DNA of 25,245 nt from a virus: positions 1 through 25,245 of the IMG/VR virus record IMGVR_UViG_3300042564_004145. One strand, written 5' to 3'. Below, piece after piece: positions 4,901 to 24,524 of the stretch (position 1 is the first letter of the stretch; each line of letters opens with the position of its first letter). A program made the translations under genes and the position numbers. Below the pieces are notes generated by a model. That model saw only the letters and a program-made list of their open reading frames with translations. It was not told where the DNA came from and did not search any database.

Positions 4901-6727
4901 TCTATATATGTTAAAATAATCTTCGCCATATGTACGTGGACTATCTTTAGTTACGACAGTTTTCGTTCTACCGGTTAATTGAAATTGGCCATCAACTGTT
5001 GTACCACTTGATAAATCTTGATCAACAATTAATGGTGATTTATGATCTTTAGTGTTATCATACCAACCAGATCCTTTTTGGAAAAATAAATCTGTTACGC
5101 CACTTACCGATTTTGGTTGTAGTGTATCAGAACTAACCGGATAACCATTTACACTTAACGATGTCGATCCTGTTGTTGTGACTGTTGAATATGAATATGT
5201 TGAGGTGTTAAACGTTGTCGTAGTTACAAGGTATTTTCCAGATATTGCCTTGAAAATATCACCTTCTAAATCGAATGACTTAGGATATGATTTTACCTTA
5301 TAAACAAATTGATTAATTTTAATTAATGGTTCAGGTGCGCCTAAAAATCTTAAAAAGAATTCTAACGATTGTCTTGTACCTTTTGATTTATAAATGTGTG
5401 CTAGGTTTACCAATAATCTTCTATAAAATTCATATTCGGCATCCAATAACGAAGTACCGGAAACTAAACCTGAATATTGTTGTGACGTTTTAGTATAAAG
5501 TAATTGATCTATTGTTTTCTCGTCAATTAAATTGACGGTATCTAAACCCAGCGTGTTAGCTAAATTCTTTAATAAAATATCGGGTACGTTATTAATACCA
5601 TCATAACTTACATTTCTCATGTAAGCAATGTTGTCAATATATTTTTTTACTTTATCAAACGATTGACCATAAAGTTGGAATATGGATTCCGCTTTTTTAT
5701 CTGGACTGTCAAACTCAAATAATTGAGGAGATGTTAAAAATCTTACAAATAAATTAGATTTATAATCGTCAATTTCGTCAGCAATATCACTCAATTTTGT
5801 TAAGTAATCTTCGTAGTCTAATCCGGCGATTTTAATATTCCAACCATCTTTTTCCGATAATGGCCAAGTATAGTTTACCGATATCAATTCTGTTTTTGTT
5901 TCGTCAAAACTATCTCTCGGTACTTTAAAACTTGCGGTATATATTGGTGAGGTATCTCTATTAAGTAAACTTTCTTCTAAATCATCCAATCCACTAAAAA
6001 ATTGTTCAACTATCCCATCATTTGGTCTAATTAAAATATTTGATGTGTACGTAGATCCCGTAAATGGTTTTCCATTAACAGTTAAAGTAATAACATTGTC
6101 TGTATTTGGTTCAACATACTTAATTATATCATATGTTTTATTATCTATACCAATAACATATTTTTGATAGTTGCTATAAAAGTCTCTTATTAAATTTGCA
6201 GATGTTTTATTATCCTTACTCTTTGGTGTTACCGTTACTATTGAAAATGGATTATACAACATACTAAACTGTACGTCAAATTTTGTTGTATTGTTTGAAA
6301 CGTTGTATTGTATGTTTGTTGCAGATAAATTATTCGTACCAATTAAACTATTGGAATCTATTAATATTGCCGCAGGGAAGTTAATTACAATTTTTTGTGT
6401 TGATACACCTAATCTACTTTTAAGTGATCCAAATAAAGATTTTCCCGCGTCACCTTTAGCGCCTTTAAATCTTGTTTCTTTCTTTCTTTTTGCAATTTCG
6501 TCTTTAGATAATAAATCATTTTCTAATTTTAAATCATCTAAGGTTAAAAATTCGGAAAACGGATTTGTTTTAAAATTTTTAGTATCTCTTTGAACTACCT
6601 CACTATCTAATGCAAAGTTCGTATTAGTCAATTGACCAGTACCTGTGGTAATTTGATTACCTACTAAATTGTCACTAAATGTATCAGCACCACTCGCAGC
6701 CTGACTTGGAACTTTATATTTTGCCAT
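1913..6727 (-). CDS. Giant baseplate/tail protein: tail-protein-I-like core fused to a modular Pro-Thr adhesin tail (1604 aa)
   Basis: Residues 1-1010 look like a baseplate component. Around 439-472 lies [23 protein letters not shown], which resembles the conserved 'IY(R/K)xRGTxxxLexlLrxxG' stretch of P2-gpI-type tail proteins, here after gp25- and gp6-like genes. Residues about 1013-1385 are Pro/Thr linkers interrupted by eight modules of the type NCxFDVxVxxxTA, starting near 1072, 1083, 1106, 1129, 1158, 1190, 1240 and 1291. Residues about 1386-1470 form a Cys-containing globular domain (ACNGG, FCNTT, CQTC). A second Pro/Thr linker covers about 1471-1511, and a last domain with two Cys (NACDN and the terminal FCS) ends the chain. 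The start overlaps the preceding stop (TAATG), suggesting translational coupling. I infer a wedge protein with an extended adhesin arm; the adhesin role is not proven. Confidence 0.85.
2200..2315 (-). repeat. Second Pro-Thr linker in the 1604-aa tail gene
   Basis: It encodes [20 protein letters not shown]-type sequence between the two C-terminal domains. The DNA words (GGTGTACTAGTTGG plus GTTGCAGTTGGTGGTAC) match those at 2640-2960. Recombination between the two arrays would delete the domain encoded between them. Confidence 0.85.
2560..3690 (-). repeat. Long Pro-Thr minisatellite region with eight interspersed NCxFD modules
   Basis: This region of about 1.1 kb is G/T-rich on the plus strand and encodes Pro/Thr/Ser linkers. 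The dominant period is 33 bp, corresponding to 11 residues such as [11 protein letters not shown]. It is interrupted by eight short conserved modules, at roughly 3512, 3481, 3412, 3343, 3256, 3160, 3010 and 2857 (position of the first base of each module on the coding strand). The module DNA is itself similar between copies: ACATCAAATAAACAGTTA on the plus strand recurs in three of them. This points to duplication within the gene. Confidence 0.9.
2694..2759 (-). repeat. Two perfect tandem copies of a 33-bp unit
   Basis: Positions 2694-2726 and 2727-2759 are identical on the plus strand, starting GGTACTGGTGTACTAGTTGG. Each copy encodes an 11-residue Pro/Thr/Ser repeat in frame. Perfect identity implies recent duplication or ongoing homogenisation. 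Confidence 0.9.
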
Positions 6728-7671: not shown

Positions 7672-9141
7672 TTATTGTTTTCTAATCTTAAAAAATCCAT
7701 TTCCATAAACATCTAATTCTAATATACTATCAATTTCGCCCAATCTCAAGTTTTGTTCCATAATACCCTGTCTTCCTCTCTCCACAAATATGTCAGAATA
7801 GACAGACGGATCGTCGATAAAACCGATAAAATGTTCATTTCTTGTAATAACGTTGTTGATTACCTCTTCTTTACTGAAATTAGATGTTTCACCTGTTATC
7901 ATAGTATACCCATCAGCAAAATCCATGTACCATAAACTATCAATAGGGACGCTACTACTAACCAAACTATTACTAACTATTAATGCACCAGTTTCCAATG
8001 TATATCCCGTATACAAAGAACCAGTAAAAGTTCCTGTTACATATGATGAGGTGCTTATTGTTGTTTGACCATATTTTCTTAATTCACCAATTTTACTACC
8101 ACCTATGGTCATATATTTTAAAACAGATGATCCAGTAAAACCCGAAAATTTAGAATTATTTAAATAATCTTGATATATACTACCTGTCGTAAATATGTTA
8201 CCTGGTACAGTAAATCCCGTGCATGTACCTAAAATATTAACATTATCGGTGATTGAACCTGTGTCAAATAATGTTATGCTTTTTGTGATTTTTTGTTTTG
8301 ACCATGGTGAGTTTAAATAAACCGAAACATCAAAACTACTAATTCTTGACCCTGTATATGTTTCTACATATGAACCTGTATTTGACGCTGTATAAGGTGT
8401 ATAATCAAAACCTGTTGTTGGTAAATTACTATATAAAATTCCTTTATTAATTTCTAACGAACCAGTAATCATCGATCCGGTTACATTTTGTCTGACTCCC
8501 CACTCTACCGTGAAATCTTGATCGACTATTTTTCTTAATTTATCTGGGTTTGTTGTTCCGTAAATTGTTACAACCGAACCAGATACTTTATATGTAAAAT
8601 TTACCAACTGCTCAACTTGTTCCATATTACCATCAAAGGATGACATAACACCTAATTCATCGACATTTGATTCGAGTGCAATTGGTATGGTAAAATTTTG
8701 ATTTATTTGACTATTAAAATTTCTTATTATTTCTTCACTTGTTGTTCCCGTTCCAACAATTAGATTCCAATTATCGCCATCCCATTTATAATATTTACCT
8801 TTTGTGTTGTTGATTGCTCTCTGTTCTTCAAATTTCCAAAAAGAACTACTTGGGGATGGTATGTTATTTAAATTTGATTCTATTAATGAACTATATGTAC
8901 TACCGCTATGAAATAAAACGACATCTTTATCATATGTTATATCTGAATACCACTTTACATCACGTACTAAATGTAAACTTCCTGTTTCATTTGAAGACGG
9001 TACCATTCCTGGTATTGGGGCTGATCCAGTATACCAAGATTGCCATTTATTTGTGAAATCAAACCAATATGATCCCGATATTGAATGTAAATTCACATCA
9101 GGTATTTGTCTTTTTAATAATGTATATTCGTTTCTTTTCAT
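7672..9141 (-). CDS. Unrecognised Thr/Ser/Gly-rich tail structural protein (489 aa)
   Basis: I place the start at the ATG at 9141 (MKRNEYTLLKRQIPDV). A TTG eight codons upstream would also be in frame but overlaps the preceding gene, while the ATG leaves a 14-base A/T-rich gap. The sequence is dotted with TGS/SGS turns (SGSYWFDF, YTGSAP, TGSLEI, TGSYVETYTGSR), giving the look of an all-beta fibre or baseplate protein. Tryptophans cluster in the first 150 residues (YWFDFTNKWQSWYTGS, SSFWKFEEQ, YYKWDGDNWNLIVG), which may form a carbohydrate- or protein-binding face. There is no Pro-Thr linker, signal peptide or membrane segment. It lies between two structural genes in the same direction. No named family is recognised. 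Confidence 0.8.
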   Translation of the reverse strand: MKRNEYTLLKRQIPDVNLHSISGSYWFDFTNKWQSWYTGSAPIPGMVPSSNETGSLHLVRDVKWYSDITYDKDVVLFHSGSTYSSLIESNLNNIPSPSSSFWKFEEQRAINNTKGKYYKWDGDNWNLIVGTGTTSEEIIRNFNSQINQNFTIPIALESNVDELGVMSSFDGNMEQVEQLVNFTYKVSGSVVTIYGTTNPDKLRKIVDQDFTVEWGVRQNVTGSMITGSLEINKGILYSNLPTTGFDYTPYTASNTGSYVETYTGSRISSFDVSVYLNSPWSKQKITKSITLFDTGSITDNVNILGTCTGFTVPGNIFTTGSIYQDYLNNSKFSGFTGSSVLKYMTIGGSKIGELRKYGQTTISTSSYVTGTFTGSLYTGYTLETGALIVSNSLVSSSVPIDSLWYMDFADGYTMITGETSNFSKEEVINNVITRNEHFIGFIDDPSVYSDIFVERGRQGIMEQNLRLGEIDSILELDVYGNGFFKIRKQ

Positions 9142-9155
9142 TAATTTAATATATT

Positions 9156-10757
9156 TTATGTACAAGTTGTAGACGCATATGTTATAGTATTATAGTCTTC
9201 TTCATTAGGTGAACTTAATGAATTAACTTGAAGACAATCTGCAATTGTTTTAGAACCTGTTGTTTCGTACATTACCGATTGAACATCTCCTGTACAATCT
9301 ATATAAAATACTTCTAATGGAGTGTCTATTACATTAAATGTTACACCTGTTACACAAGAAGGAGGGTTACTATCACAACTAACCACTGCAGATTTAACTA
9401 TTTTATTTGTTAGTGTTGTATTATCTCTCATAACAAAATACCACGTTCCGTCAGGTATATTTGACCACGTAGCTCCTGTTGATGTTGTATAACCAGTTGT
9501 TGTACCTAAAGCGGTAATTTCATCTGGGTAGTAGTATTGGTTATATTGATATGTTCCTGACCCTCCAGTTCCTCCACTAATGGTTATATATCCGATTTGA
9601 CCAACACATGTATTTGATACGTTAAAATTGACCGGTGAAGGTGTTGGGGTTGGGGTTGGGGTTGGGATGATTACGGGAACTGTGCCTCCTCCTTTTTCAT
9701 AAAAATCAATTGTAGTTGTGAGATTACTATTGCTTATACCCACTCTTTTTCCTTTTGCCCCATCACTATATTCATATATTTGATATGTTCTTTCGTAGTG
9801 ATCGAAATCGACTTGGTAATACATGTCATTTTCTTCTGTTATAACATGTGTGGTACTAAAAGGATAATTTGTAAAATCTAAAATACTTCCATCTTTTCCA
9901 TTAAAGAATTTAGCAGTCATGAAAAATGTATTCATTCCATGATAAAATGGTGTCTTTTGACCTGGCTTATCATTTGTGTTACCTAAAACTTCATATGATA
10001 AATTGGGATAGTTAAATGTTTGTCCTGTCCAACCGATTAAAGATGTTGTTCCAGTGGGTATATTAATTTGTGTTATAACGTTATTTTCATTTGTAAATAA
10101 TATCGTTTGGACCGTTGTTGCGGTAAAACTATATTTGTCTAATGTTACCGTTCCACTTAAATTTATATCTTCTAAATTGCTTTCATCATCAAACCAAAAC
10201 AAATACATATTTTCTTTGTTTCTATAGTTTGATCCGGTAAAAACCGGTATGTGAATATAGAAAGAAGATGTTGTTGATGTATATAAAAACTTTTCCCCTA
10301 ATGGTAAAGATAGATTTTTTGAACTAACAAATCTCCTATTTTGTCTTGTTGGTGGTTCACATGTTAATGTAGTTCCGGTATTTGATATTACCGTAGGTGT
10401 TTTATAAAACTCTAATCTAAAAAAACTTTCTGTTGATTGTCTTAACATTAGTTCATTTTCTCTCAATGTAATATTAACATTGGTTGACCTATAATCTTGC
10501 ATGTATGTCGATCCATTAATAAAATAAAAATTAAACCATATATCACTTTGATTTATGGTTAATCCAGTATTAATTACACGATCATATGGTCTATGAATAT
10601 ATCTAACTGTTTCGTAGTTTTTCGCTGGATTTATAATATCCTCCAAAACTTCTTTTTCAAACTCCACGAAATTTTCACTCCAACCTAAGTCAGTTCTAAA
10701 ATTTTGTTCGGTATTGATGACAAAGTTTAAATTGGTATTATTTTTTAATATTTCCAT
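9156..10757 (-). CDS. Tail protein with Pro-Thr linker and SprB-repeat-like domain (533 aa)
   Basis: The start is the ATG at 10757 (MEILKNNTNLNFVINTEQNF), which overlaps the previous stop as TAATG; an in-frame TTG two codons upstream is less likely. Residues 1-360 form a large beta-rich region. Residues about 363-374 are a [11 protein letters not shown] linker. Residues about 375-470 resemble an SprB-type Ig-like repeat: a Cys near the start (NTCVGQIGYITISGG), the 'GGTGGSGTYQY' turn, and 'IPDGTWYFVMRDNTT', which fits the family pattern GGTxPYxYxW...LxxGxYxVxVxDxxGC. The final 65 residues contain several Cys (CVTG, IDCTG, ADC, TTCT). SprB repeats are known from Bacteroidota gliding adhesins. 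I infer a cell-surface-binding arm. The domain match is by eye only. Confidence 0.8.
   Translation of the reverse strand: MEILKNNTNLNFVINTEQNFRTDLGWSENFVEFEKEVLEDIINPAKNYETVRYIHRPYDRVINTGLTINQSDIWFNFYFINGSTYMQDYRSTNVNITLRENELMLRQSTESFFRLEFYKTPTVISNTGTTLTCEPPTRQNRRFVSSKNLSLPLGEKFLYTSTTSSFYIHIPVFTGSNYRNKENMYLFWFDDESNLEDINLSGTVTLDKYSFTATTVQTILFTNENNVITQINIPTGTTSLIGWTGQTFNYPNLSYEVLGNTNDKPGQKTPFYHGMNTFFMTAKFFNGKDGSILDFTNYPFSTTHVITEENDMYYQVDFDHYERTYQIYEYSDGAKGKRVGISNSNLTTTIDFYEKGGGTVPVIIPTPTPTPTPSPVNFNVSNTCVGQIGYITISGGTGGSGTYQYNQYYYPDEITALGTTTGYTTSTGATWSNIPDGTWYFVMRDNTTLTNKIVKSAVVSCDSNPPSCVTGVTFNVIDTPLEVFYIDCTGDVQSVMYETTGSKTIADCLQVNSLSSPNEEDYNTITYASTTCT
9637..9670 (-). repeat. Short Pro-Thr linker with a G-quadruplex-capable plus strand
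   Basis: The plus strand carries GGGG at 9646-9649, 9652-9655 and 9658-9661 and GGG at 9664-9666, each separated by TT. This is a textbook intramolecular G-quadruplex pattern on the template strand, and it encodes PTPTPTPT. Codon choice (CCC alternating with ACC/AAC frames) makes it more G-rich than most linkers in the window. Confidence 0.75.
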
Positions 10758-12592
10758 TAACAATTGGTTTTGTTTTTATAATTATTAAATCCAATTAAAC
10801 CATCATTTTTATTTGTGTAAGATTTTTCATTTCTTAAATAAAAATTAATATGTTTTAAAACATAGTGCATGTTATTCATAAATGGAAAGTTTGTACCGTT
10901 TCCGTCTTGATCTAAAAATCCGTGATCATATAAATCTCTCCATTTCCAAAGTTTTTCATTTTCATCGTAAATTGCATTCTCAGGTAAGTTGATTAATGTG
11001 TTAGGTTGTTTTGCGTCAAGTTTTGAATTTTCAATGTATGGTGATAGTTCTCTCAATTTAACCCTGTAATGAGGTTGGTAATAATACCCAACCGTGTTTC
11101 CTGTACCAGCTAATGAATAAAAACTATTTAGATCTTGGCTATGATCGAATATTTTTACTCCGCCAACATTTTTTAAATGTGAAAACTTATGATAAGTTTC
11201 ACTTATAATTCTTTCTTTGATTTCACCTCTATTGTATTCAACAAACGCGCCGGTTAGTACCGAACCTTTTTGTAATGTGTTTCCTTTGGTAAATCCTGTG
11301 ACTCCGCTGTTTACTGTGAGAGATGATTTTGTTATTCCCGTTTCGGTGTTTCCCGTAAATTGATTGTCTATCCAACTATCATGAAAATTAAATTTATATC
11401 CTATCTTAGGTGGGTAGTCAAAAAATCCATTTTCATTTCTAAAAATCATAGTAATATAAACATCGGTCGGTGTATAATTTAAATTGTTAGTTAATCCAGA
11501 TAATGTGAAAGTTTTTTTAAAATCAAACAAAAGAGATTCTTGTCTATTTCTTTCAACTAATACGTCATCCTCACCTAAAGCATTTTCAAATAATATTTTT
11601 CTTTCGTCTTCAAATATTGAAGATTCAAAACCAACTTTATCTAAAATATAATCATCAATTGTTGTTAACGTTTTATGTTTATGTACATAATATGTTGATG
11701 TTGTTCCACTTATGTTATTTATGTCCTTACATCTTCTACCTAATACCACCGAACTTAAAGTTGTTCCTGAGGTAAACTCACTTCTAAGAATATTAATTAC
11801 ATATTTTTCTGAGTTATAATTTTCATCTCCCACATTATCTACATAAAATGTTCTAAACTGTTCGGTTGTAGATGTTACGGGTATTGTATAATATGTTTTT
11901 CCAGTTGTTGTTCCTGAATATGATGTGTAGGTTCCTCCTGATAAAATTATATATTCTCCTTGTGAAATCCCATGTTCAACAGGTGATGTTAAAGTTACAT
12001 ATGTGTCACCTGTGGTTACTCTAAATGGAATACCGTCACCTGCAACAAAATTATAATTTGTGCCGTCTGAAAGTGTATAGTTCATTGTAAATCCAGTATC
12101 CTGACCATAGACATATGTTAAATATAAATTCCAATTTTTATATGGCGCTTCCATCGATGTTGTTGAGGTGTGACCTGTATATCTATTATTATCTAATACA
12201 TTTACCGTTGGTGCTGTAATTACTGAACCTCTACTTGGTGTTGATACTTCTCTTAACACATCATTTCTTAAAAATGCAAATTCATTATATGGTACAAACC
12301 CTAATTTATCTCCAGTACCGTCTCCACATAAATAAAGATTTTTCAATAGTGGAACATAGTCTGTATAACCATTATACATGTTTCTAAAAACCATTTTTAT
12401 TTTACCATAAATCTTATAATTGACACTTTTGTTTCTTTCTTCATTAAATAAATCAGCTAAGTTTAGGACAATATCTTTATCACCTTCTCTTAATAATGTT
12501 TCGTCATTCTCTAACTTAACACTAAGATTTAGATCTTGGTCATCTGCCTTAAAGTACCTTTTACTTGGTAATAATATTTCTTTCTTTTCCAT
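10757..12592 (-). CDS. Unrecognised baseplate/tail structural protein (611 aa)
   Basis: The protein starts MEKKEILLPSKRYFKADDQD and has a charged N-terminal 70 residues followed by a long Thr/Ser/Gly/Tyr-rich beta-like body. Notable phrases are FRNMYNGYTDYVPLLKNLYLCGDG, a segment similar to repeated 'VTLTSPVEHGISQGEYIILSGGTY' seen in virion proteins that bind surfaces, and a C-terminal region DLYDHGFLDQDGNGTNFPFMNN. The DQDGNGT run resembles a Ca-binding loop, but this is only a look-alike. The C-terminus is Asn/Lys-rich and ends in Cys. There is no Pro-Thr linker, unlike both neighbours. Its stop overlaps the next start (TAATG) and its start follows the 1397-aa gene by 13 bases, so it is within one operon of wedge or fibre-attachment genes. 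I cannot name the family. Confidence 0.8.
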   Translation of the reverse strand: MEKKEILLPSKRYFKADDQDLNLSVKLENDETLLREGDKDIVLNLADLFNEERNKSVNYKIYGKIKMVFRNMYNGYTDYVPLLKNLYLCGDGTGDKLGFVPYNEFAFLRNDVLREVSTPSRGSVITAPTVNVLDNNRYTGHTSTTSMEAPYKNWNLYLTYVYGQDTGFTMNYTLSDGTNYNFVAGDGIPFRVTTGDTYVTLTSPVEHGISQGEYIILSGGTYTSYSGTTTGKTYYTIPVTSTTEQFRTFYVDNVGDENYNSEKYVINILRSEFTSGTTLSSVVLGRRCKDINNISGTTSTYYVHKHKTLTTIDDYILDKVGFESSIFEDERKILFENALGEDDVLVERNRQESLLFDFKKTFTLSGLTNNLNYTPTDVYITMIFRNENGFFDYPPKIGYKFNFHDSWIDNQFTGNTETGITKSSLTVNSGVTGFTKGNTLQKGSVLTGAFVEYNRGEIKERIISETYHKFSHLKNVGGVKIFDHSQDLNSFYSLAGTGNTVGYYYQPHYRVKLRELSPYIENSKLDAKQPNTLINLPENAIYDENEKLWKWRDLYDHGFLDQDGNGTNFPFMNNMHYVLKHINFYLRNEKSYTNKNDGLIGFNNYKNKTNC

Positions 12593-12605
12593 TTTTTATT
12601 TTATT

Positions 12606-15600
12606 TTAAGGACAATCTACTCCTGCACAACTAGTTAATGATGTTGAGAATTGACCAGCTGTACCAACTATTCTTCTATATCCAATAGGTCCACTTCCAT
12701 AATATCCAGCAGGAACAGGGAATAAAGTTGATCCATTACTTACAAACATCTCTGTTGCCGCGTCAAAATAACTAGTGCCTCCATTATCATCCACCCAGAA
12801 CTGAGTAACTATTTCATAACCATCAGTTGGAGTGAAAACAAAATTACCCGAACCATCTGTATATAAAACAGAACCTTGACAACAAACTCCAGTGTTAGGA
12901 GCGTTAGATGTATTATAAGCATATTCAAGTGCAGGAATTGAAACGTATGTAGGTCCTGGTGGTGGTGTAGGGCATAAATTACAATTTGTTCCAAGATAAG
13001 TCTCTCCATCTCCTAAATCAATATCATATGTAGGACCAAATGTAAATCCAGTTAATCTAATACAAACATAATTTCCTAAATCAAATACTGAATTTAATAC
13101 TTGATCAACAGTAACTCTTACTGTTCCTGCATTTCCACCACTACAATAAACTGCAGTGTAATATTGATAAGATGGACTCGTTGTTGTCGGTGTAGGTGTT
13201 GGTGTATTTGTCGGTGTAGGTGTTGGTGTATTTGTCGGTGTTGGTGTAGGTGTTGGTGTTGGTGTTGATGTGGATGTGGATGTACTTACCGATGTTGTTT
13301 CACATTCTAATAAATTGAATGCTCCGTTAGGACCAAATAAATCAATAAATTTATCTAATCCAGTTTTACCTACGTTTAATCCAAAATAAAATTGAAATGG
13401 TGTTGATAATATTTGTTTTGTTGTTCCGCTATAATAATCTTGTCTTTGTGGAATTATCAAATCGGTTGTTGATGACCATGGAATTATTTGCCAAGTTCCT
13501 GCAGCACCATAACGAATATGTAATGTTCCCGATGTGGGATTTTCAATAGTTCCTCCCGTTACTCTTAAAACAGAAAATCCGGGATATTCTATATTGTACT
13601 GTGTATATTCAGTAGACGCACCTGAATAAATAATATCATATTCAACCACGTCTGTTATATTTACGGATGTATTACCCGTAACACCTGGATTTGTATTTGT
13701 TATTGGTAATAGTAAAAATTTATCAGAAGGATCATTAGGGATATCGGTTAAGTTATAACCGTATGTCATACCTTGTAATGGTTTTGTAATTACATTATTA
13801 TAATCCCAACCTTGATTACTTCTGTTAACCCCCCCTGGTCCAAAACCTTCACCTCCTTTCTCCCATAAGTAAAATGGTACTTCTTGTGTTGAATCGTTTA
13901 ATCTATCGTTTAAACACGATCTAATTCTTTGCCCATCTTCATCTAATTCTAATGTAACGGGTAATGGTCCCCAATCACCTGAAGTTCCTCCTGTATATCC
14001 AACTTTGAAAAATGATTCATTATCTTCGGGATCTAAAAAATCAAATCGATATCCTAAATATTTTGGGTTTTCCAAATCAAACTGATCAATACCTGCTTCA
14101 TTATTTGTTGACACTAACTGAAGTATATCTCCGTCTAATACTTTATTTAACCCCGCATTAAAAAATGACTGATTACTAAAAAATAAATCTAAATTACCAT
14201 TTGCATTTGCGGTGTCCATTCTATAGTTAATTGCTAATCCCAATAAATCACCCAAAGATTGTTGTGACGTTGCACCAATAGATCTAGCAACAGAGCAGTT
14301 CGGATCTAAAGTTTTATCAATACAGATTTCTTTTATAAATTCATCTCTAGGCCCTAAATCTACAATTGTTGTTGGTCTATTTAATTCTTCTTTATTAAAA
14401 CCAGATGTAGTATTAAATGATGACGATCTGTAATAAAATCTTTTTTGATCAAATACGAATCTAACTAAAGTTCTACAATATTTTAATACGCCTTGTGATG
14501 TTGCGGTTGCGAGTTTTCTTAATTTTTTAACTTTAAATTGTGTAAAATATAATGATCCTGATAACCAATTATCAATAAATCCATAATTTACGACCCCACC
14601 ACAAAACATTTTACCAACTCTTTTTCTTCTAAAATATTCTCTTAATAATCCAGTTAGTCTTCTCGATGTTTGAGTACCTGGCACTATATAAAAAACACCA
14701 TTTATAAATTCACTTCTTGTACTTGGAGTTGCAAAACCGCCATCCTCATTATAATCTTCGCAGTTGAAGTCTCTAATACCTGTGGTAAATGGTGAAAAAT
14801 TACCTCCGCCGATTGGATATGGGTAATAAGATTGCGGAACATGAGCTTCTCCACCATAAATTGCTGTTGATATTAAAATATCTCCGGGTGATAGATTTGC
14901 AACATATTTTCTACCTATATTTTGTGGTAAATAACTGGCTGAAGATCCACAACCTGTAAATGCATTAGTGTTAGTATTATCCACAACAAAATAACCGGTT
15001 ACTAGACTATCGTCATATAAAGTATCATATAAATCACAACCAGATGAACCGGTGTATGACGATGCAAAACCTCCTCCAGATGTCGCCGTTTCATCCGAAC
15101 ATTCAACACATTCTGGATAATTTATTAAACTTAATTTGGCTGTATTATTTATTTGTAATCTTGTAATAGCACCTCTTAAACTATCGCTACCTCCTAATGA
15201 AATTACGATTTCCGCCAAAGCGTTACCAATAAAAATTGTAATATTTAAAAATTGTAATGTTAAAAATTTTATTACAAAATCTAAAGCTAATAAAAAATCT
15301 GCGATTAGTAATGAGAATGTATAATTTTTAACTCCGAAATTGGTTGGGGGTGTTACTTTATCACCACAATCTTCTTCTTCTGATGGTAATATTTCATTAA
15401 TATTAGCAAAGTTATATTTCGTGTTCGGATTGAAAGCTGATGTAAATACTCTTGATAACGCGTCTTGACCGATGAAATGGCTATGAAATGACGAAACGGT
15501 ATAAACTTTATTATAATTAAATCTATAAAAATAATCTTTTGGTTTAAATTGGCCGTTTTCATTATTAAGTATTAAAGATTGTGCATCTGCTGGATATCCA

Positions 15601-16799
15601 CTATAATCTAGTCCAAAATAATACGATTTATCTATATCATTATCATATTCCCTAATATTTGGAACTAAAAAATCAGCGTTAGCTCTAGCCCTATCTAATC
15701 CATTGTCATTTAAATTGAATCTAAATCTATAACATGCCGAAGTTGCTATTCCTTTATTAAAGTCATTTGTATACTCATTCTCACCAAACTCATTGGTAAT
15801 AACATAATCCATATTCATTTCTAACGGTAAAACAAATCCTCCATCGTCTGGTATGTCTTCGTCGATTGGCAAATATTCTAAAAAAGGTCTTCCTAAATCA
15901 TCCTTTACGGGTTTAAATCTTAAAGCCTCAATGTTAGCTGATTTTGTAACGAGATCACATTTTCTACCCATCTTTCTTCTCGGAGTACAATTTTTATTAA
16001 CGGAGTTTTTTGCAGAATCACCAAAAACACCGCCAATCAAATATGCTGTTGGTTTAATATTAACTCCTCTATCAGATAAATCAAAATCAGTTCTAGTGAT
16101 ACCAATTTCACATAAACTTTCATTACCCCAAAATGGATAAACTTCGATTAATCTATCAAAACTTACAATTTGTGGTAACGAATCTAAGTCCTCTGATGAT
16201 TTAAATGTGTATTTGTTTTTAAATCCATCAACACCGATACCTAATCTTTGTAGATCATATGGCCTTAATGAGAAACAACCGATGTCAGATAAATCGACAT
16301 CAACATGTATTGTTTGATTACCTACCGGTACCCCCCATATCATGAAGTCACCTGCGGGGTTCGTTTTTACAGTAAACTTGTAATATTTTTCATATACCTC
16401 TAAAACTTCTTCTCTACTTAAAATATCACTTTGATCTGGGAATGTACCCGTTGGAGCATGTCCACCATGTTGTTGTCTTGATGGTAATAAGTTATATCTG
16501 TAATTGTTATCATCCTTATCGGTTACCTCTTTGTACGGGTATAAGGACGAGATTACGGGGTCATTCTCATCTTCTGTGGAAAGGGGTATAAAAATTGAAA
16601 CTCTAGCATTTCCAAGGCCAAAACCATTGTTTGCGGTAACTCTACCACAAACCACCCCATAGTCAGAACATATTGAGGTATATATTTCTTGTTGAGAGAA
16701 TTTTAAAGATAAAATCTCCAACACATCAAAATCTTGTTTTAACTCCACTGTGATCTTTTGATCGATCCCTAAATTGGTTGAAATTCTATGTTTTTGCAT
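12606..16799 (-). CDS. Giant tail/baseplate protein with carboxypeptidase-regulatory-like domain, hydrophobic segment and Pro-Thr-linked C-terminal domain (1397 aa)
   Basis: Near the N-terminus, VVCGRVTANNGFGLGNARVSIFIPL (about 49-73) and FTVKTNPAGDFMIWGVPVGNQTIHVDV (about 142-168) look like the two halves of a CarboxypepD-regulatory/prealbumin-type beta-sandwich, separated by an insertion of about 65 residues. Residues about 486-535 are strikingly hydrophobic (FSLLIADFLLALDFVIKFLTLQFL, then NITIFIGNALAEIVISLG), unexpected in a soluble virion protein. Cys-rich patches follow (PECVECSDE, SGCDLYDTLYD, TGCGSS). Residues about 1170-1208 are a Ser/Thr then PTPTPTNT linker. The last 190 residues hold paired Cys (YCSGG, NCNLC, CCQG, SCAGVDCP). 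The gene lies directly after gp25- and gp6-like genes. I infer a wedge or tip protein with an exposed C-terminal head; the membrane-contact idea is speculative. Confidence 0.85.
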   Translation of the reverse strand: MQKHRISTNLGIDQKITVELKQDFDVLEILSLKFSQQEIYTSICSDYGVVCGRVTANNGFGLGNARVSIFIPLSTEDENDPVISSLYPYKEVTDKDDNNYRYNLLPSRQQHGGHAPTGTFPDQSDILSREEVLEVYEKYYKFTVKTNPAGDFMIWGVPVGNQTIHVDVDLSDIGCFSLRPYDLQRLGIGVDGFKNKYTFKSSEDLDSLPQIVSFDRLIEVYPFWGNESLCEIGITRTDFDLSDRGVNIKPTAYLIGGVFGDSAKNSVNKNCTPRRKMGRKCDLVTKSANIEALRFKPVKDDLGRPFLEYLPIDEDIPDDGGFVLPLEMNMDYVITNEFGENEYTNDFNKGIATSACYRFRFNLNDNGLDRARANADFLVPNIREYDNDIDKSYYFGLDYSGYPADAQSLILNNENGQFKPKDYFYRFNYNKVYTVSSFHSHFIGQDALSRVFTSAFNPNTKYNFANINEILPSEEEDCGDKVTPPTNFGVKNYTFSLLIADFLLALDFVIKFLTLQFLNITIFIGNALAEIVISLGGSDSLRGAITRLQINNTAKLSLINYPECVECSDETATSGGGFASSYTGSSGCDLYDTLYDDSLVTGYFVVDNTNTNAFTGCGSSASYLPQNIGRKYVANLSPGDILISTAIYGGEAHVPQSYYPYPIGGGNFSPFTTGIRDFNCEDYNEDGGFATPSTRSEFINGVFYIVPGTQTSRRLTGLLREYFRRKRVGKMFCGGVVNYGFIDNWLSGSLYFTQFKVKKLRKLATATSQGVLKYCRTLVRFVFDQKRFYYRSSSFNTTSGFNKEELNRPTTIVDLGPRDEFIKEICIDKTLDPNCSVARSIGATSQQSLGDLLGLAINYRMDTANANGNLDLFFSNQSFFNAGLNKVLDGDILQLVSTNNEAGIDQFDLENPKYLGYRFDFLDPEDNESFFKVGYTGGTSGDWGPLPVTLELDEDGQRIRSCLNDRLNDSTQEVPFYLWEKGGEGFGPGGVNRSNQGWDYNNVITKPLQGMTYGYNLTDIPNDPSDKFLLLPITNTNPGVTGNTSVNITDVVEYDIIYSGASTEYTQYNIEYPGFSVLRVTGGTIENPTSGTLHIRYGAAGTWQIIPWSSTTDLIIPQRQDYYSGTTKQILSTPFQFYFGLNVGKTGLDKFIDLFGPNGAFNLLECETTSVSTSTSTSTPTPTPTPTPTNTPTPTPTNTPTPTPTTTSPSYQYYTAVYCSGGNAGTVRVTVDQVLNSVFDLGNYVCIRLTGFTFGPTYDIDLGDGETYLGTNCNLCPTPPPGPTYVSIPALEYAYNTSNAPNTGVCCQGSVLYTDGSGNFVFTPTDGYEIVTQFWVDDNGGTSYFDAATEMFVSNGSTLFPVPAGYYGSGPIGYRRIVGTAGQFSTSLTSCAGVDCP
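13178..13290 (-). repeat. Pro-Thr linker minisatellite in the 1397-aa tail gene
   Basis: The plus strand carries nearly identical 24-bp units (GTATTTGTCGGTGTAGGTGTTGG) at about 13185-13250, encoding NTPTPTPT. A Ser/Thr stretch (STSTSTST) follows on the N-terminal side of the linker. Confidence 0.85.
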
Positions 16800-18690: not shown

Positions 18691-19143
18691 TTATATGTTT
18701 AAAATTATAAAGTCGGATGTTGAAAATGATCCGTTATTAACGGTATAGTCTATTTTCACTACCGCAGTATATGGTTTAGTCGATTCGTCTGAAACCCTAA
18801 ATAATCTTTCATCTTCTTCTTGTGAGAAGCTTCTACCTTGATTTGGGTCATCTTCAGCTGACATTATTGAAATGGTATTAATATCCAAATTTGGAATGAA
18901 CTTCTTAACTCCTTCCCTTATTTCCTCTTCTATTAAATTGTGGGTAATAAAATCATTTTGATCAAAGATAAATTCGTATATTCTTGTACCGAAATCTGGT
19001 AAATAATACCTACTACCTCTCCTTGTTAATATAAGATGTATTAAGTTAGCTCTAACCTCCTTCTCGGGGATTTCTGTCATGTTCAGATAATCTCCCTTAG
19101 GACTGTCTTTAAATGGATAATCAATACCGTATGTTGTCGCCAT
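18691..19143 (-). CDS. Baseplate wedge protein, gp25 / P2-gpW family (150 aa)
   Basis: I choose the ATG at 19143 (MATTYGIDYPFKDSPKGDYL) over an in-frame TTG two codons upstream. The length fits the family (T4 gp25 is 132 aa). The core 'VRANLIHLILTRRGSRYYLPDFGTRIYEFIFDQND' matches the gp25/GPW pattern of a 'I..NI..LL.T..GER...P.FG..L...LFE' helix and strand. The following 'ITHNLIEEEIREGVKKFIPNLDI' matches the helix leading to the sheath-binding strand region. In T4 and P2 this protein joins the baseplate wedge to the first sheath layer. Its adjacency to the gp6-like gene, with a single base between stop and start, is the classical W-J order. It is the first structural gene after the replication block and is preceded by an A/T-rich motif. 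Confidence 0.93.
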   Translation of the reverse strand: MATTYGIDYPFKDSPKGDYLNMTEIPEKEVRANLIHLILTRRGSRYYLPDFGTRIYEFIFDQNDFITHNLIEEEIREGVKKFIPNLDINTISIMSAEDDPNQGRSFSQEEDERLFRVSDESTKPYTAVVKIDYTVNNGSFSTSDFIILNI

Positions 19144-19147
19144 ATTC

Positions 19148-19155
19148 AATAAATA
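19148..19155 (-). promoter_or_regulatory. TATTTATT motif upstream of the gp25-like gene
   Basis: The coding strand reads TTATATTTATTGAAT immediately before the ATG at 19143. It lies at the border between replication and tail genes, where a late promoter would be expected. Confidence 0.35.
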
Positions 19156-19173
19156 TAAACAAACACAAAATGG

Positions 19174-19347
19174 TTATGTATCCTCTTTCAATTTTGTATT
19201 TCCTTTGATTGTACGAGGTGGGTCATATGGACAATTTGAACATCCGTTGGAACAACAGTACCCTCTCTTCTGTAAAAAGAAAGAAGTCAGGACCATAAGC
19301 CCCGACTTCTCATCTATGTAGTAATCTACTCCTTCCTCTAATTTCAT
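19174..19347 (-). CDS. DUF5522-like small Cys-motif protein (57 aa) coupled to ribonucleotide reductase
   Basis: The reading frame starts with ATG at 19347, overlapping the reductase stop as TAATG, and encodes MKLEEGVDYYIDEKSGLMVL followed by TSFFLQKRGYCCSNGCSNCPYDPP and a Lys-rich end. The K-R-G-Y-C-C-x-N-G-C-x-x-C-P-Y motif is the hallmark I know from the small DUF5522 family, found in many Bacteroidota and other organisms and of unknown function. Four Cys at about residues 31, 32, 36 and 39 suggest metal or Fe-S binding, or redox activity. Coupling to a thiol-dependent reductase makes an accessory or reducing role attractive, but this is inference. The second third of the gene contains a terminator-like hairpin. 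The gene is too short to appear in ordinary ORF listings, but codon structure and motif are convincing. Confidence 0.85.
   Translation of the reverse strand: MKLEEGVDYYIDEKSGLMVLTSFFLQKRGYCCSNGCSNCPYDPPRTIKGNTKLKEDT
19274..19310 (-). terminator. Intrinsic-terminator-like hairpin inside the DUF5522-like gene
   Basis: On the coding strand AGAAGTC pairs with GACTTCT, and the adjacent GGGG can pair with TCCT (two G-C and two G-U pairs), making an 11-bp stem with loop CTTATGG, followed directly by TTCTTTTT. It lies within the open reading frame, at the end of the replication block. It could act as a conditional terminator, suppressed by ribosomes translating the small gene. Confidence 0.5.
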
Positions 19348-21608
19348 TAGATACTTGTTACATCACATTGTGCTCCACTACAAGCTTGTGCCGCATAATC
19401 AGAAATATTCTTGTATTGTGGTTTATCCAAAATGGTGCCAAAATCAACTTCTTTAAATTGGCGAGTAATGGTTTCCCACTTATAGAATAAGTGTACGTCT
19501 TTCAAACAATAAACCATTTTCTTTAAATCACCTTTGAAGTAATTCTTTGCAAATTTCTTTGCTCTTGAGATCCAATATTTCTTTAATAATACTTGTTCTC
19601 TTGTTCCTGTTACCGGAATTGAATCGTCTAATAAAGTATCTGTAGCCAACCATAGGTTATTTTGGAAATAATGTAAGCCGTCAATGATTAAACCTGAAGC
19701 TAGTATTGAACCTTTACCATATGTTTCCACAATTTCATCAAGATTTAAAACCGATGTAAATGGTGCTTGGTTGAAATCTTTATCTCCGTAATCTGACATG
19801 AAGCTAACCGCAGTAAAGAAATCTCTTTGTTCCCAAATGTATTCAACAATCGCATCTTTGTCATCAATGATAACCGTACAAGATGTATTGTGATTTACTG
19901 GCATGTAAGCACACAATTCAGGATTTGTACCGGCATTTACCCAATGTTGTTGAACTAACTTAATCAATTCAAGGTGTTTAATTCCTTTCATGTCTTTTTT
20001 GAATAGACCAACTTTTGGATTTTCTACTGGAACAAATACAACATAATCTGATTTAGTTGATGACCATACACTCTCCTCTAATAAGAATGACATATTATCT
20101 TCTAACCATTTTGCGGTATTACTTTCTTTGTTCAATTGCATAATACGGAAATACTTTTCAGAATGTTCAGGGTGAATACCTGACGCAGTTCCCAATACAA
20201 CTGATGCGTTACCTGATGGTTTTACACATGTAGTTCTCGCAGCTTGGTTAATGCCTATAACTGCCGCTAATTCTTTATTAGCATCTTTTACTGCTTGTGC
20301 ACCTTCTTCTAATAATTCAGCATTAAACAATTTAGGGTTATTCATCCAGCCTGTAATACTAACGCCTAATAAAGCTTCTCTTTCGAAAATTGCCTTACTT
20401 GTTTCACCTAAATAAGGGAAGTCAGTATAACCCGCTTGTAATGTACCTAAGAAAGATGCGTCTCTACAAGCCTTTAAAAACTTTTCTTTTGTTGTTGCCT
20501 TTTCAGCATTTATTTCTGTTAAGTTACAACCTTGAATACCAAATTTAGATTTGTTGTCTTTTACATATTGCTCAACTTCATCATATTTGATTTTACCAAA
20601 ATCAATTGTGTCTAATACAGGTATTTTTAAAATCTCAAAACATGGATTGAACATGTCAAACCAACTATTAGCAAACACGAAACCAATATCATTTGCTCCG
20701 TCGTTTAATTGTACTAGATAATTGAATTGATCTTTTTTAACTTCACTTCTTAATAATAAAACCGAGTTATTACTTCTACCTCTTTGTGGATTCTCCATTC
20801 TCCAGTTTCCGGTCTTAGCATGAATCATCTCGTCATCATTAGGATCAACAATCATATTTAACGCTGAACGTCTAACACCGCCAGATAATACCGCATCGGC
20901 AGAATGACAAATAATGTCAAACGCTAAAATAGGACGGATTTTTTCTCCTTCTGTTGCAATCCATTTTTCAATTAATTGTTCGATCTTTTCTAATGATTGT
21001 TTTAAACCATCAGGGCCAGGTGCTTTAAAGCCTCCGCTAATGAACGCACCTTTCTCGCGAATTAAAGAATAATCTAATTTAACTTCGTAACCAGCATATT
21101 CTGGGAACGGTTGGTCGTCAACGAAATAAGATGATAATAATACACCTAATGCATTTGCCCAACCTTCGATTGAATCTTCAATATAAAAAGTCTTTGTACC
21201 TAAAGTTCTTTTTTGTATTCTACTTAAATTGTTTACAAAAGGAATTAATAAACCTCCACCAAATCCACAACCTGATAATGCAAGATAGAAAATCTCTTGG
21301 AACACTCTATTACGTGCAATGTGTCCTGATGTACAGTTAAACATTCTCGTATTATGTTTCATAATTTGTTCATGTCGATATTGCAAATTTCTTTGCGATG
21401 CTAACACCGCTTGGTCTTTCATACTTTCAACAGCACTTTGTAAATACGGTTCAATAGCGTCAGCATATTTTACATATTTTTTTCTGTGTCCATCGATGAT
21501 GTTTTCACAAGCATCTTCCCACGTTTCATAACGACCTTTATCCTCTAACCATTTGAAATAATCTGAGTGTAACTTCAAGTCACTCAGAAATTTTTTACCT
21601 TTCTGCAT
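19347..21608 (-). CDS. nrdJ: Adenosylcobalamin-dependent (class II) ribonucleoside-triphosphate reductase (753 aa)
   Basis: It makes deoxyribonucleotides from ribonucleoside triphosphates using a B12-generated thiyl radical, feeding phage DNA synthesis. Length matches monomeric RTPR of Lactobacillus type (739 aa). Visible signature parts are the N-terminal TWEDACENIIDGHRKKY, LSGCGFGGG with the first active-site Cys (about 114), SADAVLSGGVRRSA (236-249), FNPCFEI with Asn321, thiyl Cys323 and Glu325, and GCNLTEIN with the partner Cys (about 361). The C-terminal tail CSGAQC provides the CxxxxC redox pair that reduces the active site. The thiyl and partner Cys are 38 residues apart, against 11 in the Lactobacillus enzyme, so this loop is longer. 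It lies 25 bases after the helicase gene and its stop overlaps the DUF5522-like start. Being O2-independent, it needs host cobalamin. Confidence 0.95.
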   Translation of the reverse strand: MQKGKKFLSDLKLHSDYFKWLEDKGRYETWEDACENIIDGHRKKYVKYADAIEPYLQSAVESMKDQAVLASQRNLQYRHEQIMKHNTRMFNCTSGHIARNRVFQEIFYLALSGCGFGGGLLIPFVNNLSRIQKRTLGTKTFYIEDSIEGWANALGVLLSSYFVDDQPFPEYAGYEVKLDYSLIREKGAFISGGFKAPGPDGLKQSLEKIEQLIEKWIATEGEKIRPILAFDIICHSADAVLSGGVRRSALNMIVDPNDDEMIHAKTGNWRMENPQRGRSNNSVLLLRSEVKKDQFNYLVQLNDGANDIGFVFANSWFDMFNPCFEILKIPVLDTIDFGKIKYDEVEQYVKDNKSKFGIQGCNLTEINAEKATTKEKFLKACRDASFLGTLQAGYTDFPYLGETSKAIFEREALLGVSITGWMNNPKLFNAELLEEGAQAVKDANKELAAVIGINQAARTTCVKPSGNASVVLGTASGIHPEHSEKYFRIMQLNKESNTAKWLEDNMSFLLEESVWSSTKSDYVVFVPVENPKVGLFKKDMKGIKHLELIKLVQQHWVNAGTNPELCAYMPVNHNTSCTVIIDDKDAIVEYIWEQRDFFTAVSFMSDYGDKDFNQAPFTSVLNLDEIVETYGKGSILASGLIIDGLHYFQNNLWLATDTLLDDSIPVTGTREQVLLKKYWISRAKKFAKNYFKGDLKKMVYCLKDVHLFYKWETITRQFKEVDFGTILDKPQYKNISDYAAQACSGAQCDVTSI

Positions 21609-21633: not shown

Positions 21634-23013
21634 TTATTGTTTAGTTGCTACCTGTTGTCGCCTCTTAAATGCTTCTGCCGCTCTGTTAGCATTTATTTGG
21701 ACTTTTTGCTCTTCGTGTCCCAACAATGTATTTTGAGACTCCGTATCAATAAGAAGGAACTCGTTATTGAATTTACAGTTTTGGAAAACAACACCATCTC
21801 TACCAATACGTGATTTTAATAACGTAAGTGTTGCCAAATTGTGTTCTTTTTGTTCTAACGTTTTACCGATAGATAATATAACGTGAGCAATTTGTGCTTT
21901 CTTAATTGAACCACCCATTTGGTCACCTGTCACAACTTCAGACGAAATTGATTCACGGTTGCCTTGTGTTGCGGTCCATATTGCCATTTCAAATTCAGAT
22001 GTCATTGACTCTAAACTTCTCATAACAGATCCTTCACCTTTCCATTCTTCTCCATTAGCTGATTTATCAGTTGATACGCAATCAACATAATCCAATACTA
22101 ATAAGTCAACTTTTTTACCGCCCTCTGAGTTCATCTTTCTGATTTTATTTTTAATTTCAGAAACAGTAACATTATCACTAGCTAATTTTAATAACTTTAA
22201 ACTACCCTTAGATTTAGCCTGTGCCTCTTCTACTTTCATCTTAACTTCATCTTTAAAATCAGGTTGTGAATCTGGAGCAATTTCTGTCCAAATCGTATAG
22301 TGTTTTCTTTTAATATTACCTGGATTATCCTCAAAGAAAATTTGCACAACATTGTAGCCTAAGTTATAAGCGGTGTTCGCAAACTTTGTAAGTAAGGTAG
22401 TTTTACCGGTACCCGTAGGTGCTAATACAACCCCCAGTTCTCCGATCCCAAGACCGCCTTTAAGTAAGTTGTCGATACCCACAATACCTGTCGGTAATGG
22501 GTGTCTAAAGTCCTTCTCTAATGCTCCATCGATATCATGAAATACATCTGTTGCTTCATCGTTGGCTAAACCAACTTGTAATGCTTTTTGGATGATTTCC
22601 TCAATTTTGTTATAAGCCTCAAACTCACCACTTTCAATAATGCTCTGTACACTTTTTAACTCTCTTTTCAAGTTTTGTTGTTTACAGAAATTAAGTGCTG
22701 TGTCTTTTACGTATTCAATTTGAGACTCGTTATTTTTAATTGCTTCTAATGTATCTACGTGAATTTTAGAGGAATCTTTGTTACCGCCTTCGGCCATGAT
22801 TTTCTGTGCCAATGTATTGTAATCGGGGATTTTGTTGTAATTCTTATACAACTCCTTTGTATTTTCCATAATAAATCTAAATGAGTTATTATCAAAAAAC
22901 TTACTCTCTAATACATCAATAATTGTTTCTCCGTACTTCTTATCTTCAATAATTGCTTTGATAAGGGACTGTTGAAACGAAAATCCCAAATACCCAAAAT
23001 TCCTTTCTTCCAT
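21634..23013 (-). CDS. Replicative DNA helicase, DnaB / T4 gp41-like (459 aa)
   Basis: A hexameric 5'-3' helicase of superfamily 4, unwinding DNA at the phage replication fork. Residues 1-150 form a DnaB-N-like helical region (NFGYLGFSFQQSLIKAIIEDKKYG, then NNSFRFIMENTKELYKNY). The RecA-like motor has Walker A APTGTGKTT (198-206), the H1a Glu region QIFFEDN, Walker B VDLLVLDYVD (302-311), the glutamine switch TATQGNRES (347-355) and an arginine-finger-like KSRIGRDG (400-407). T4 gp41 is 475 aa, so the size fits. The C-terminal 40 residues are Gln/Ala/Lys-rich. No separate primase is seen in this window. The start ATG at 23013 follows the unknown 152-aa gene by 25 bases, and the gene is co-directional with the nuclease, recombinase and reductase genes. 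Confidence 0.95.
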   Translation of the reverse strand: MEERNFGYLGFSFQQSLIKAIIEDKKYGETIIDVLESKFFDNNSFRFIMENTKELYKNYNKIPDYNTLAQKIMAEGGNKDSSKIHVDTLEAIKNNESQIEYVKDTALNFCKQQNLKRELKSVQSIIESGEFEAYNKIEEIIQKALQVGLANDEATDVFHDIDGALEKDFRHPLPTGIVGIDNLLKGGLGIGELGVVLAPTGTGKTTLLTKFANTAYNLGYNVVQIFFEDNPGNIKRKHYTIWTEIAPDSQPDFKDEVKMKVEEAQAKSKGSLKLLKLASDNVTVSEIKNKIRKMNSEGGKKVDLLVLDYVDCVSTDKSANGEEWKGEGSVMRSLESMTSEFEMAIWTATQGNRESISSEVVTGDQMGGSIKKAQIAHVILSIGKTLEQKEHNLATLTLLKSRIGRDGVVFQNCKFNNEFLLIDTESQNTLLGHEEQKVQINANRAAEAFKRRQQVATKQ

Positions 23014-23038: not shown

Positions 23039-23497
23039 TTATAATTCGTATCCTAAATAACTTGTTTCCAATTCTTCCGAAGACAGGATGTCCGTTAGAT
23101 CGGAAAGAATTCTCTTCAATCTTGGACGGATATCTACTGTGTATCTCGCCTTTGGATGATAAACATATGCGGGAAACAGTCTTTGAATAAATACATCGTC
23201 CCCTAACTTAATTTCCAATAAAAAATGTTCTTTTTCTTGTGTTAACGTCTCATCCACAACCTCCGAATGAAGGATATAGTTTTGATTTTCGCATAGATAA
23301 TTGGAACTTTTTATTTTCAAATCTTCCATAAAATCTTCACAAATATTTTTTACATAATAATGAAGATCTAATGATCGTCTCGCTTGGTCAACGTGATCTC
23401 TAACGTTAAAAAATCTTTGACATACGATATGTCCTTCTAAAGACAAAAGAAACTCGAATTTTGTGATGTTCTCTTGGTTTTGGTAATCTCTACTCAT
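23039..23497 (-). CDS. Unrecognised 152-aa protein between nuclease and helicase
   Basis: The start MSRDYQNQENITKFEFLLSL overlaps the end of the nuclease gene by 8 bases (ATGAGTAG), indicating coupling. The protein is acidic and aromatic, with three Cys (IVCQRF, NICEDF, YLCENQ), a phrase DQARRSLDLHYYVKNICEDFMEDLKIKSSNYL, and a C-terminal KARYTVDIRPRLKRILSDLTDILSSEELETSYLGYEL. There are no known catalytic motifs and no membrane segment. The pattern 'FEFLLSLEGHIVCQRFFNVRDH' then 'HFLLEIKLGDDVFIQRLFPAYVYHP' has two similar strand-rich phrases, and might be an internal duplication (FLLsLeGhIVcQRfF and FLLeIkLGDdVFIQRlF). Position suggests a replication accessory factor such as a helicase loader or clamp-associated protein, but there is no direct sequence support. 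Confidence 0.8.
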   Translation of the reverse strand: MSRDYQNQENITKFEFLLSLEGHIVCQRFFNVRDHVDQARRSLDLHYYVKNICEDFMEDLKIKSSNYLCENQNYILHSEVVDETLTQEKEHFLLEIKLGDDVFIQRLFPAYVYHPKARYTVDIRPRLKRILSDLTDILSSEELETSYLGYEL

Positions 23498-24524
23498 AAG
23501 GTCTTACTTTAATTGTTTTTTTTATATTGTTTTTTATATTTTTTTCTTTTCTTGTTAATCTTAGAAAAGGGTTTAAAAAATTAATCCACGCATCTTCTGA
23601 TTTTGGTAGAACATTAAAAAGTCCATCTTCATTCATCATCTTCATGGCATTCTTGTACGATCTTCCTTCTTGGTCTAATGATTCACTAATCAGTAGGTTA
23701 ATAACCTCTTTTGCCTCGTCTGTTAAAAATGGTTCATCCAAACTTACTATCCTGTTGTTTACGTCGAAGAATTCCTCACCTAGAACACCGTGTTTTGTTA
23801 CACCCGTCAATAAATTAGCAATTGACTTATTGTGTTTGTCTTGTTCAAATAATAGGTTACACTTATCTTTAACCTGATCAACCGTAATTGGTTGATTTCT
23901 TAGTTCAGGGACAAAAGACAATAATCTTTTTAATCCCATTCCTCTTATTCCTGCTATGTTATCTGATGCGTCACCACAAATCATTTTTACCAATCGAACA
24001 TTTTCGATAAGGATTTCTTCGTGATCGTAAACGATTATATCATTTTTTGAATATAATTTCCTGTGTGAAGGATTGTAAACTTGTGTGTTTTCTGAAACGA
24101 GTTGAGTTAAGTCCCCGTCTGATGAATAAATAATTTTTCTTTCGTCAGGTGAGTTTTGAGTATAGTAAGCGATGTTATCATCGGTCTCACAATACTCAAA
24201 TTCTCCTTGTCTGACATATAACTCCTCAAGATACTGTTTGATACGTTCTCTTTGGTAGTTATAAGATTGTAAATCTTCTTCTGTTCTAACTCTTTGTCTT
24301 CTGTTTTCCTTGTAGTGAGAATATATTCTTCTTCTATTTTGTGATCCCTCAAAGCCATCCCAAAAAACAACAATCTTGTCTAGTTGGTATTCCTCAAAAG
24401 ATCTTCTTAAGGTGTTTAGAAAGTGGTAGATACCACCTATATGTGTTCCTTTATAAAACACATTCTTCGCTCCGTAATAACCAATAGTTAATAGATTATC
24501 ACCATCAACAAGTAAAACCGACAT
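23490..24524 (-). CDS. 5'-3' exonuclease / flap endonuclease, T4 RNase H-like (344 aa)
   Basis: A PIN/FEN-type nuclease that removes RNA primers and 5' flaps during lagging-strand synthesis. Metal-binding acids are in place: VDGDN with Asp7 and Asp9, VVFWDG with Asp56, CETDDN (Glu113, Asp115, Asp116), SSDGDL (Asp136, Asp138) and CGDASDNI (Asp185, Asp188). The last leads into a helix-three-turn-helix DNA-binding motif GIRGMGLKRLL (192-202). The Arg/Lys-rich segment after Asp56 (QNRRRIYSHYKENRRQRVR) corresponds to the arch or helical clamp region. T4 RNase H is 305 aa, and the extra C-terminal part here is Lys/Asn-rich (KEKNIKNNIKKTIKVR). It follows the recombinase by 9 bases and overlaps the next gene by 8, indicating one replication operon. 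Confidence 0.93.
   Translation of the reverse strand: MSVLLVDGDNLLTIGYYGAKNVFYKGTHIGGIYHFLNTLRRSFEEYQLDKIVVFWDGFEGSQNRRRIYSHYKENRRQRVRTEEDLQSYNYQRERIKQYLEELYVRQGEFEYCETDDNIAYYTQNSPDERKIIYSSDGDLTQLVSENTQVYNPSHRKLYSKNDIIVYDHEEILIENVRLVKMICGDASDNIAGIRGMGLKRLLSFVPELRNQPITVDQVKDKCNLLFEQDKHNKSIANLLTGVTKHGVLGEEFFDVNNRIVSLDEPFLTDEAKEVINLLISESLDQEGRSYKNAMKMMNEDGLFNVLPKSEDAWINFLNPFLRLTRKEKNIKNNIKKTIKVRPYE

Follow-up and report, generated by a model that had tools for sequence, protein, structure and literature searches.

Why should a virus couple the gene for a 57-aa protein of the DUF5522 family to that of its B12-dependent ribonucleotide reductase (RNR), and what could so small a protein contribute to the enzyme? 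Phage B12-dependent RNRs are abundant, and during infection they have to obtain and retain a cofactor that is scarce and easily inactivated. The question is raised by positions 1 to 25,245 of IMG/VR virus record IMGVR_UViG_3300042564_004145, a stretch of 25,245 nucleotides that is referred to below as the window.

A DUF5522 gene overlapping a class II RNR gene

The reductase of the window comprises 753 aa and is encoded on the minus strand (19347..21608). It matched phrog_367 when compared with PHROGs (2e-77), its best NCBIfam model was the AdoCbl-dependent TIGR02505 (3e-36, which is below the equivalog cut-off of that model), and its only PDB sequence match was the RTPR of L. leichmannii (1l1l). 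The catalytic cysteines C92, C323 (NPCFE) and C361 align with those of other class II phage RNRs, as does the tail pair C743/C748, which forms the C-terminal redox motif CSGAQC (19365..19382, minus strand) and is the expected target of thioredoxin. Together, the profile matches, the PDB match and the aligned cysteines confirmed the initial annotation of a B12-dependent enzyme, by sequence a class II/RTPR-like RNR that is predicted to depend on adenosylcobalamin. A class I small subunit (PF00268) was not detected when 20 records of related phages, including three above 200 kb, were examined, so that these phages, as far as seen, depend on the B12 enzyme.

The final base of the RNR stop codon TAA is the first base of the DUF5522 start codon ATG, resulting in a 1-nt overlap (TAATG, 19345..19349, minus strand). 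The 57-aa ORF and its overlap with the RNR stop had been recognized before, but the interval assigned to it, 19174-19360 with no strand given, has to be corrected to 19174..19347 on the minus strand. An AGGAGG-like site was found neither before the DUF5522 gene nor before the other genes examined; since the DUF5522 gene lacks such a site, reinitiation at TAATG is a plausible route for its translation.

Translation of the ORF yields MKLEEGVDYYIDEKSGLMVLTSFFLQKRGYCCSNGCSNCPYDPPRTIKGNTKLKEDT. This protein matched the DUF5522 profile PF17653 with 63.9 bits (cut-off 25, E 1.4e-17) over positions 5-45 of 48, which confirmed by profile that the product, initially called DUF5522-like, is a bona fide member of the family. 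No model of PHROGs or NCBIfam matched it. Its core, CCSNGCSNC (C31, C32, C36 and C39; 19231..19257, minus strand), holds the four cysteines of the family, all of which were invariant in an alignment of 92 sequences, and the pattern CCx3Cx2C was present in 328/328 DUF5522 homologues examined, a set of which the scan-derived part was motif-seeded. In the window protein RG stands before this core and P[YF] after it. It thus has the full-length domain match, the four invariant cysteines and the Y/V/T/RG signature in common with the family, whereas its coupling to a phage class II RNR sets it apart from a family without prior function. A codon comparison with eight relatives gave dN/dS values of 0.05-0.15, which indicates that the ORF encodes a protein under purifying selection.

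The structure of the 57-aa protein was predicted as a beta-hairpin, a helix and a Cys loop (pLDDT 91.4). Compared with PDB folds, the model gave no match under E 2, a PDB sequence search gave nothing usable either, and the viral fold library returned matches to unnamed phage proteins only. No redoxin family of Pfam matched the protein and the predicted model does not contain a thioredoxin fold. The statement that DUF5522 has no known function stands, as no mention of the family was found in open-access papers; the same literature yielded nothing functional on C1orf53 and OXLD1. Human C1orf53 is presumably a eukaryotic member of the family.

On the minus strand, the pair is flanked by genes for a DnaB-like helicase (21634..23013) and a 5'-3' exonuclease (23490..24524) as conserved upstream neighbors and by a baseplate gp25 homologue downstream (18691..19149), all assigned by profile matches and synteny. 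The gp25 slot changes in other phages, while the RNR-DUF5522 pair stays. A B12 salvage gene was not seen beside DUF5522 in the window. Elsewhere in the window, at 1913-6727 and 7672-16799, large minus-strand ORFs of structural type (1604, 497, 535, 611 and 1397 aa) had no Pfam match.

Conservation of the pair in phages and probable exchange of its RNR

When IMG/VR was scanned with DUF5522 as the lead, 77 homologous viral loci were obtained, in most of which RNR stop and DUF5522 start show the same 1-nt overlap. A second scan of wider scope raised the number of viral DUF5522 loci to 147, which fall into 17 sequence groups and include a few contigs that were fetched twice. By tblastn no RNR was found in 10 of the 147 loci, 8 of which are cut at the contig end, and a class II RNR was present in 137 of the remaining 139 evaluable loci. 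In one of the two exceptions (L166) the contig does carry a class II RNR, ~6 kb upstream; the other (L168, 75 kb) is the sole DUF5522 IMG/VR contig without any class II RNR.

When sampling was led by the RNR, DUF5522 was found behind the reductase in 63/79 loci of the 620-aa lineage and in 18/41 loci of the L165 lineage, and in 0/33 loci of more distant RNR lineages. In four of these 33 loci (L530, L531, L533 and L535) a glutaredoxin-like gene, checked against Pfam for L530, overlaps the RNR gene by 4 nt. The pair spans three RNR lineages, the 753-aa type of the window, the 620-aa type and the RTPR type of L165. A match in Microcystis phage MaAM05 (L079, MW495066.1, ~233-246 kb) was left out of account, as the record is, at least there, probably bacterial and not phage DNA: DUF5522 adjoins purL/purF and shares 87% identity with that of Vampirovibrio chlorellavorus, and yitJ, gatA and rnhC are found in the same stretch.

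In most of these phages the upstream block of exonuclease, helicase, RNR and DUF5522 was kept by descent, and because the block is shared in this way the viral locus counts are not independent. The genes downstream of DUF5522 vary between phage groups, and in L075 the pair occurs in a context without the helicase. In L015, L018, L075, L171 and others, homing-endonuclease-like ORFs have been inserted at the exact junction of RNR and DUF5522; the 3' end of the RNR gene seems to be a recurrent insertion site. Between the window and L074, identity amounts to 74% for DUF5522, 52% for the helicase, 47% for gp25 and only 35% for the RNR, which also differs in length, and the window RNR, over its full length, shares 45% identity with its counterpart in Rhizobium phage RHph_I1_18. 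Given the difference between DUF5522 and RNR in the comparison with L074, the RNR looks to have been exchanged while DUF5522 was retained. The RNR of L165 represents the third lineage (22% identity) and is again followed by DUF5522. The link between RNR and DUF5522 would thus in part exceed shared gene order.

DUF5522 has been lost in the relatives L442 and L452, and related RNRs without DUF5522 occur in Rhizobium phage RHph_I1_18 and KLEP7. In L398 (4832-5120), L437 (4832-5120) and L454 (4832-5117) the gene is seemingly cut to an N-terminal remnant without cysteines, behind which another small Cys protein, with a zinc-ribbon-like pattern, is encoded. Losses and Cys-less remnants suggest that DUF5522 helps and is not strictly required.

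B12 genes and cobalamin riboswitches at bacterial DUF5522 loci

DUF5522 was also found in Bacteroidota, Planctomycetota, Acidobacteriota, other bacteria and a few archaea, mostly as a single copy in the genomes looked at. An enrichment of nrd genes around DUF5522, as proposed initially, was obtained for the phages (137/139) but not for bacteria, where a class II RNR was found within ~8 kb of DUF5522 in 0/81 scan loci. In nine loci (L087, L235, L298, L300, L302, L305, L307, L308 and L313) bacterial DUF5522 is fused to a DUF71/Dph6-like PP-loop domain (PF01902), and in three (L094, L141 and L245) to BtuF-like proteins (PF01497), at either end; the best NCBIfam match of L245 is BtuF. Bacterial DUF71 proteins had independently been predicted to function in B12 salvage, since they are mostly encoded next to BtuCDF or CbiB genes (PMC3541065). 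Another set of bacterial DUF5522 proteins is fused to the Cys-rich CWC domain, and neighbor clustering revealed that in Bacteroidota the genes for CobU, BluB-CobT, CobS and CobC, all of which exceeded the cut-offs of their NCBIfam models, are located directly behind CWC-DUF5522. At other DUF5522 loci BtuC, BtuD-like, TonB-B12-like and DUF5074 beta-propeller proteins are encoded nearby, with BtuC and TonB-B12 among the best matches.

A B12 gene was present within 5 kb in 25/100 HMM-sampled bacterial DUF5522 loci and in 3/40 control regions of the same genomes (Fisher 0.014), and a stricter B12 gene set gave 22 DUF5522 loci versus 1 control (0.0024); this enrichment in locus counts is partly circular, as the neighbor profiles were built from DUF5522 neighbors. 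For this reason the weight rests on the fusions, the identities by curated models and the riboswitches. About 75% of the HMM-sampled bacterial loci had no B12 gene within 5 kb, and the neighbors at loci without a B12 link include urocanase, TrmB and GluQ-like genes. The PduO adenosyltransferase family was present in 29/29 Bacteroidota genomes with DUF5522 and in 59/89 without it (Fisher 4.7e-5), a difference that is confounded by phylogeny and genome size.

Cobalamin-family riboswitches (Rfam) were detected in 15 scanned DUF5522 loci, RF00174 in 14 of them and AdoCbl-II in L128. In L087, L097, L136, L137, L251, L262, L249 and L141 the riboswitch lies ahead of a run of genes on the same strand, DUF5522 among them. 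It is followed by a TonB receptor and DUF5522/DUF71 in L087, by a TonB receptor, DUF5074 and DUF5522 in L097 and L136, by a TonB receptor, DUF5522, BtuF and BtuC in L262, and by DUF71 and BtuF/DUF5522 in L141. In L250 the riboswitch is located ~230 bp before DUF5522 itself, and in five Bacteroidota cob loci it precedes btuB, which adjoins the DUF5522-cob gene run. No cobalamin riboswitch was detected in 20 control regions of the same genomes, in 31 DUF5522 loci without B12 neighbors, in ten additional loci, most of which are DUF71 fusions, or in the phage window. The riboswitches are an independent line of evidence for a B12 linkage in a subset of bacterial DUF5522. Linkage or fusion to cobamide genes, the mark of B12 salvage and handling proteins, was thus found for this bacterial subset, and for the phage copy only via the RNR. 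A tree of the 45-aa domain did not group the phage copies with the B12-linked bacterial copies, at a resolution too low to place the origin of the phage copies.

Two other bacterial contexts were observed. In L106, L133 and ~22 further Bacteroidota loci a stand-alone DUF5522 immediately precedes urocanase (HutU) or forms a fusion with it, a link that a B12 role leaves unexplained. In L301, L303, L330 and L332 DUF5522 is found near a glutamyl-Q tRNA(Asp) synthetase-like gene, with which it shares a long frame in L330. QueG is B12-dependent, and a queuosine link for DUF5522 is possible at these loci. Fusions with urocanase (L106, L133), DUF188 (L092) and the GluQ-like protein (L330) amount to 1-2 cases each, some of them possibly long-open-frame artefacts, and were not taken further.

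A proposed role in cobamide handling

The corrinoid is common to the phage partner, a B12-dependent RNR, and to part of the bacterial contexts, namely B12 uptake and salvage, and for this reason cofactor handling was chosen as the function to be proposed. The initial annotation had suggested a supply of thiol, metal or cofactor for ribonucleotide reduction; the bacterial fusions, operons and cobalamin riboswitches favor the last of these and narrow it to the cobamide. We consider it fairly probable that DUF5522 is a small cobamide-handling family and that the phage copy helps the RNR to obtain or keep usable adenosylcobalamin. That it represents a new, widely distributed cobamide-handling factor, and in phages a dedicated B12 accessory of class II RNR, is put forward more tentatively. 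We infer that the B12 role proposed for the bacterial proteins extends to the phage copy and that DUF5522 and RNR are direct partners. DUF5522 would be made together with the B12-dependent RNR via the stop/start overlap, and could then load or supply corrinoid to the enzyme, or exchange or clear inactivated cob(II/III)alamin and thereby reactivate it. Alternatively, the CCx3Cx2C center, which may bind a metal or ligate or act on cobalt, could keep the cobalt in a usable redox or ligand state. To our knowledge, no reactivating or loading partner of class II RNR has been described. An adenosyltransferase of the PduO family (PF01923) was not found in 20 phage records, and a complete phage B12 pathway is therefore not claimed. 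In a fraction of bacteria, DUF5522 is fused to or in an operon with the DUF71-B12, BtuF and cobUTSC salvage modules (PMC3541065), with cobalamin riboswitches, whereas the phage DUF5522 adjoins an enzyme that uses B12 and was not seen beside any salvage gene.

Cobamide handling was weighed against three other explanations. DUF5522 might have a different function and owe its place to a conserved phage gene order. The exonuclease-helicase-RNR-DUF5522 block is indeed shared by descent, which makes the counts non-independent, and some three quarters of the bacterial copies are without B12 linkage, but the link outlasts the apparent replacement of the RNR, change of the downstream genes, homing-endonuclease insertions and the helicase-less context of L075, and just one DUF5522 contig of IMG/VR, that of 75 kb, is without any class II RNR, which makes such a passive inheritance improbable. 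It is likewise unlikely that DUF5522 is dedicated to reducing the C-terminal Cys pair of the RNR, as thiol reductant or redox relay, the role that glutaredoxin or thioredoxin has in other phages. Those redoxins are, like DUF5522, small Cys proteins encoded just downstream of the RNR, often with an overlap, and the glutaredoxin-like genes of the unrelated phages L530, L531, L533 and L535 occupy the same slot. The four invariant cysteines would suit this role, and some NrdJ enzymes accept neither thioredoxin nor glutaredoxin in vitro (PMC5704485). However, a viral NrdJm accepts host thioredoxin (PMC6459318), and 13/24 phage records with DUF5522, among them all three of >200 kb, additionally encode thioredoxin; in L075, L077 and L163 its gene lies close to that of the RNR. 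DUF5522 moreover belongs to another family, without a CxxC redoxin fold and with a model that lacks a PDB match, the RNR retains a C-terminal Cys pair of its own, and in bacteria it is B12 genes that DUF5522 tracks, with no RNR found nearby in the 81 scan loci. The thiol supply proposed initially is therefore disfavored.

The third explanation takes DUF5522 as a stand-alone structural or metal module that acts on the RNR in trans, in oligomerisation or in positioning of the tail, like the C-terminal Cys-rich zinc domain (CRD) of NrdJ (PMC5704485). Most dimeric class II RNRs have such a domain, which is needed for turnover; both modules are Cys-rich and linked to class II RNR, the four cysteines of DUF5522 could bind metal, and the bacterial fusion to CWC joins it to another Cys-rich domain. 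DUF5522 is nevertheless a separate gene and by its Cys count, four in CCx3Cx2C and not six, appears distinct from the CRD. The RNRs keep their own tail pair, and the B12-salvage association found here for DUF5522, with fusions to salvage proteins and no RNR near the 81 bacterial scan loci, also speaks against this explanation, which we regard as very unlikely.

The cobamide-handling proposal is the first functional hypothesis for DUF5522. A 57-aa protein that is coupled to the RNR and comes from a family with ties to B12 salvage in some bacteria makes the question of the phage cofactor testable, and if the proposal is true, the function of the eukaryotic members could be tested as B12 biology. 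While the family as such is known already, a phage B12-handling partner of class II RNR would be new among phage RNR accessory genes.

As a separate observation, two tandem thioredoxin-family ORFs were found in the related phage contigs G767 (122328-122801), G768 (70174-70644), G780 (57250-57720) and G790 (12191-12661), where they possibly form a redox relay.
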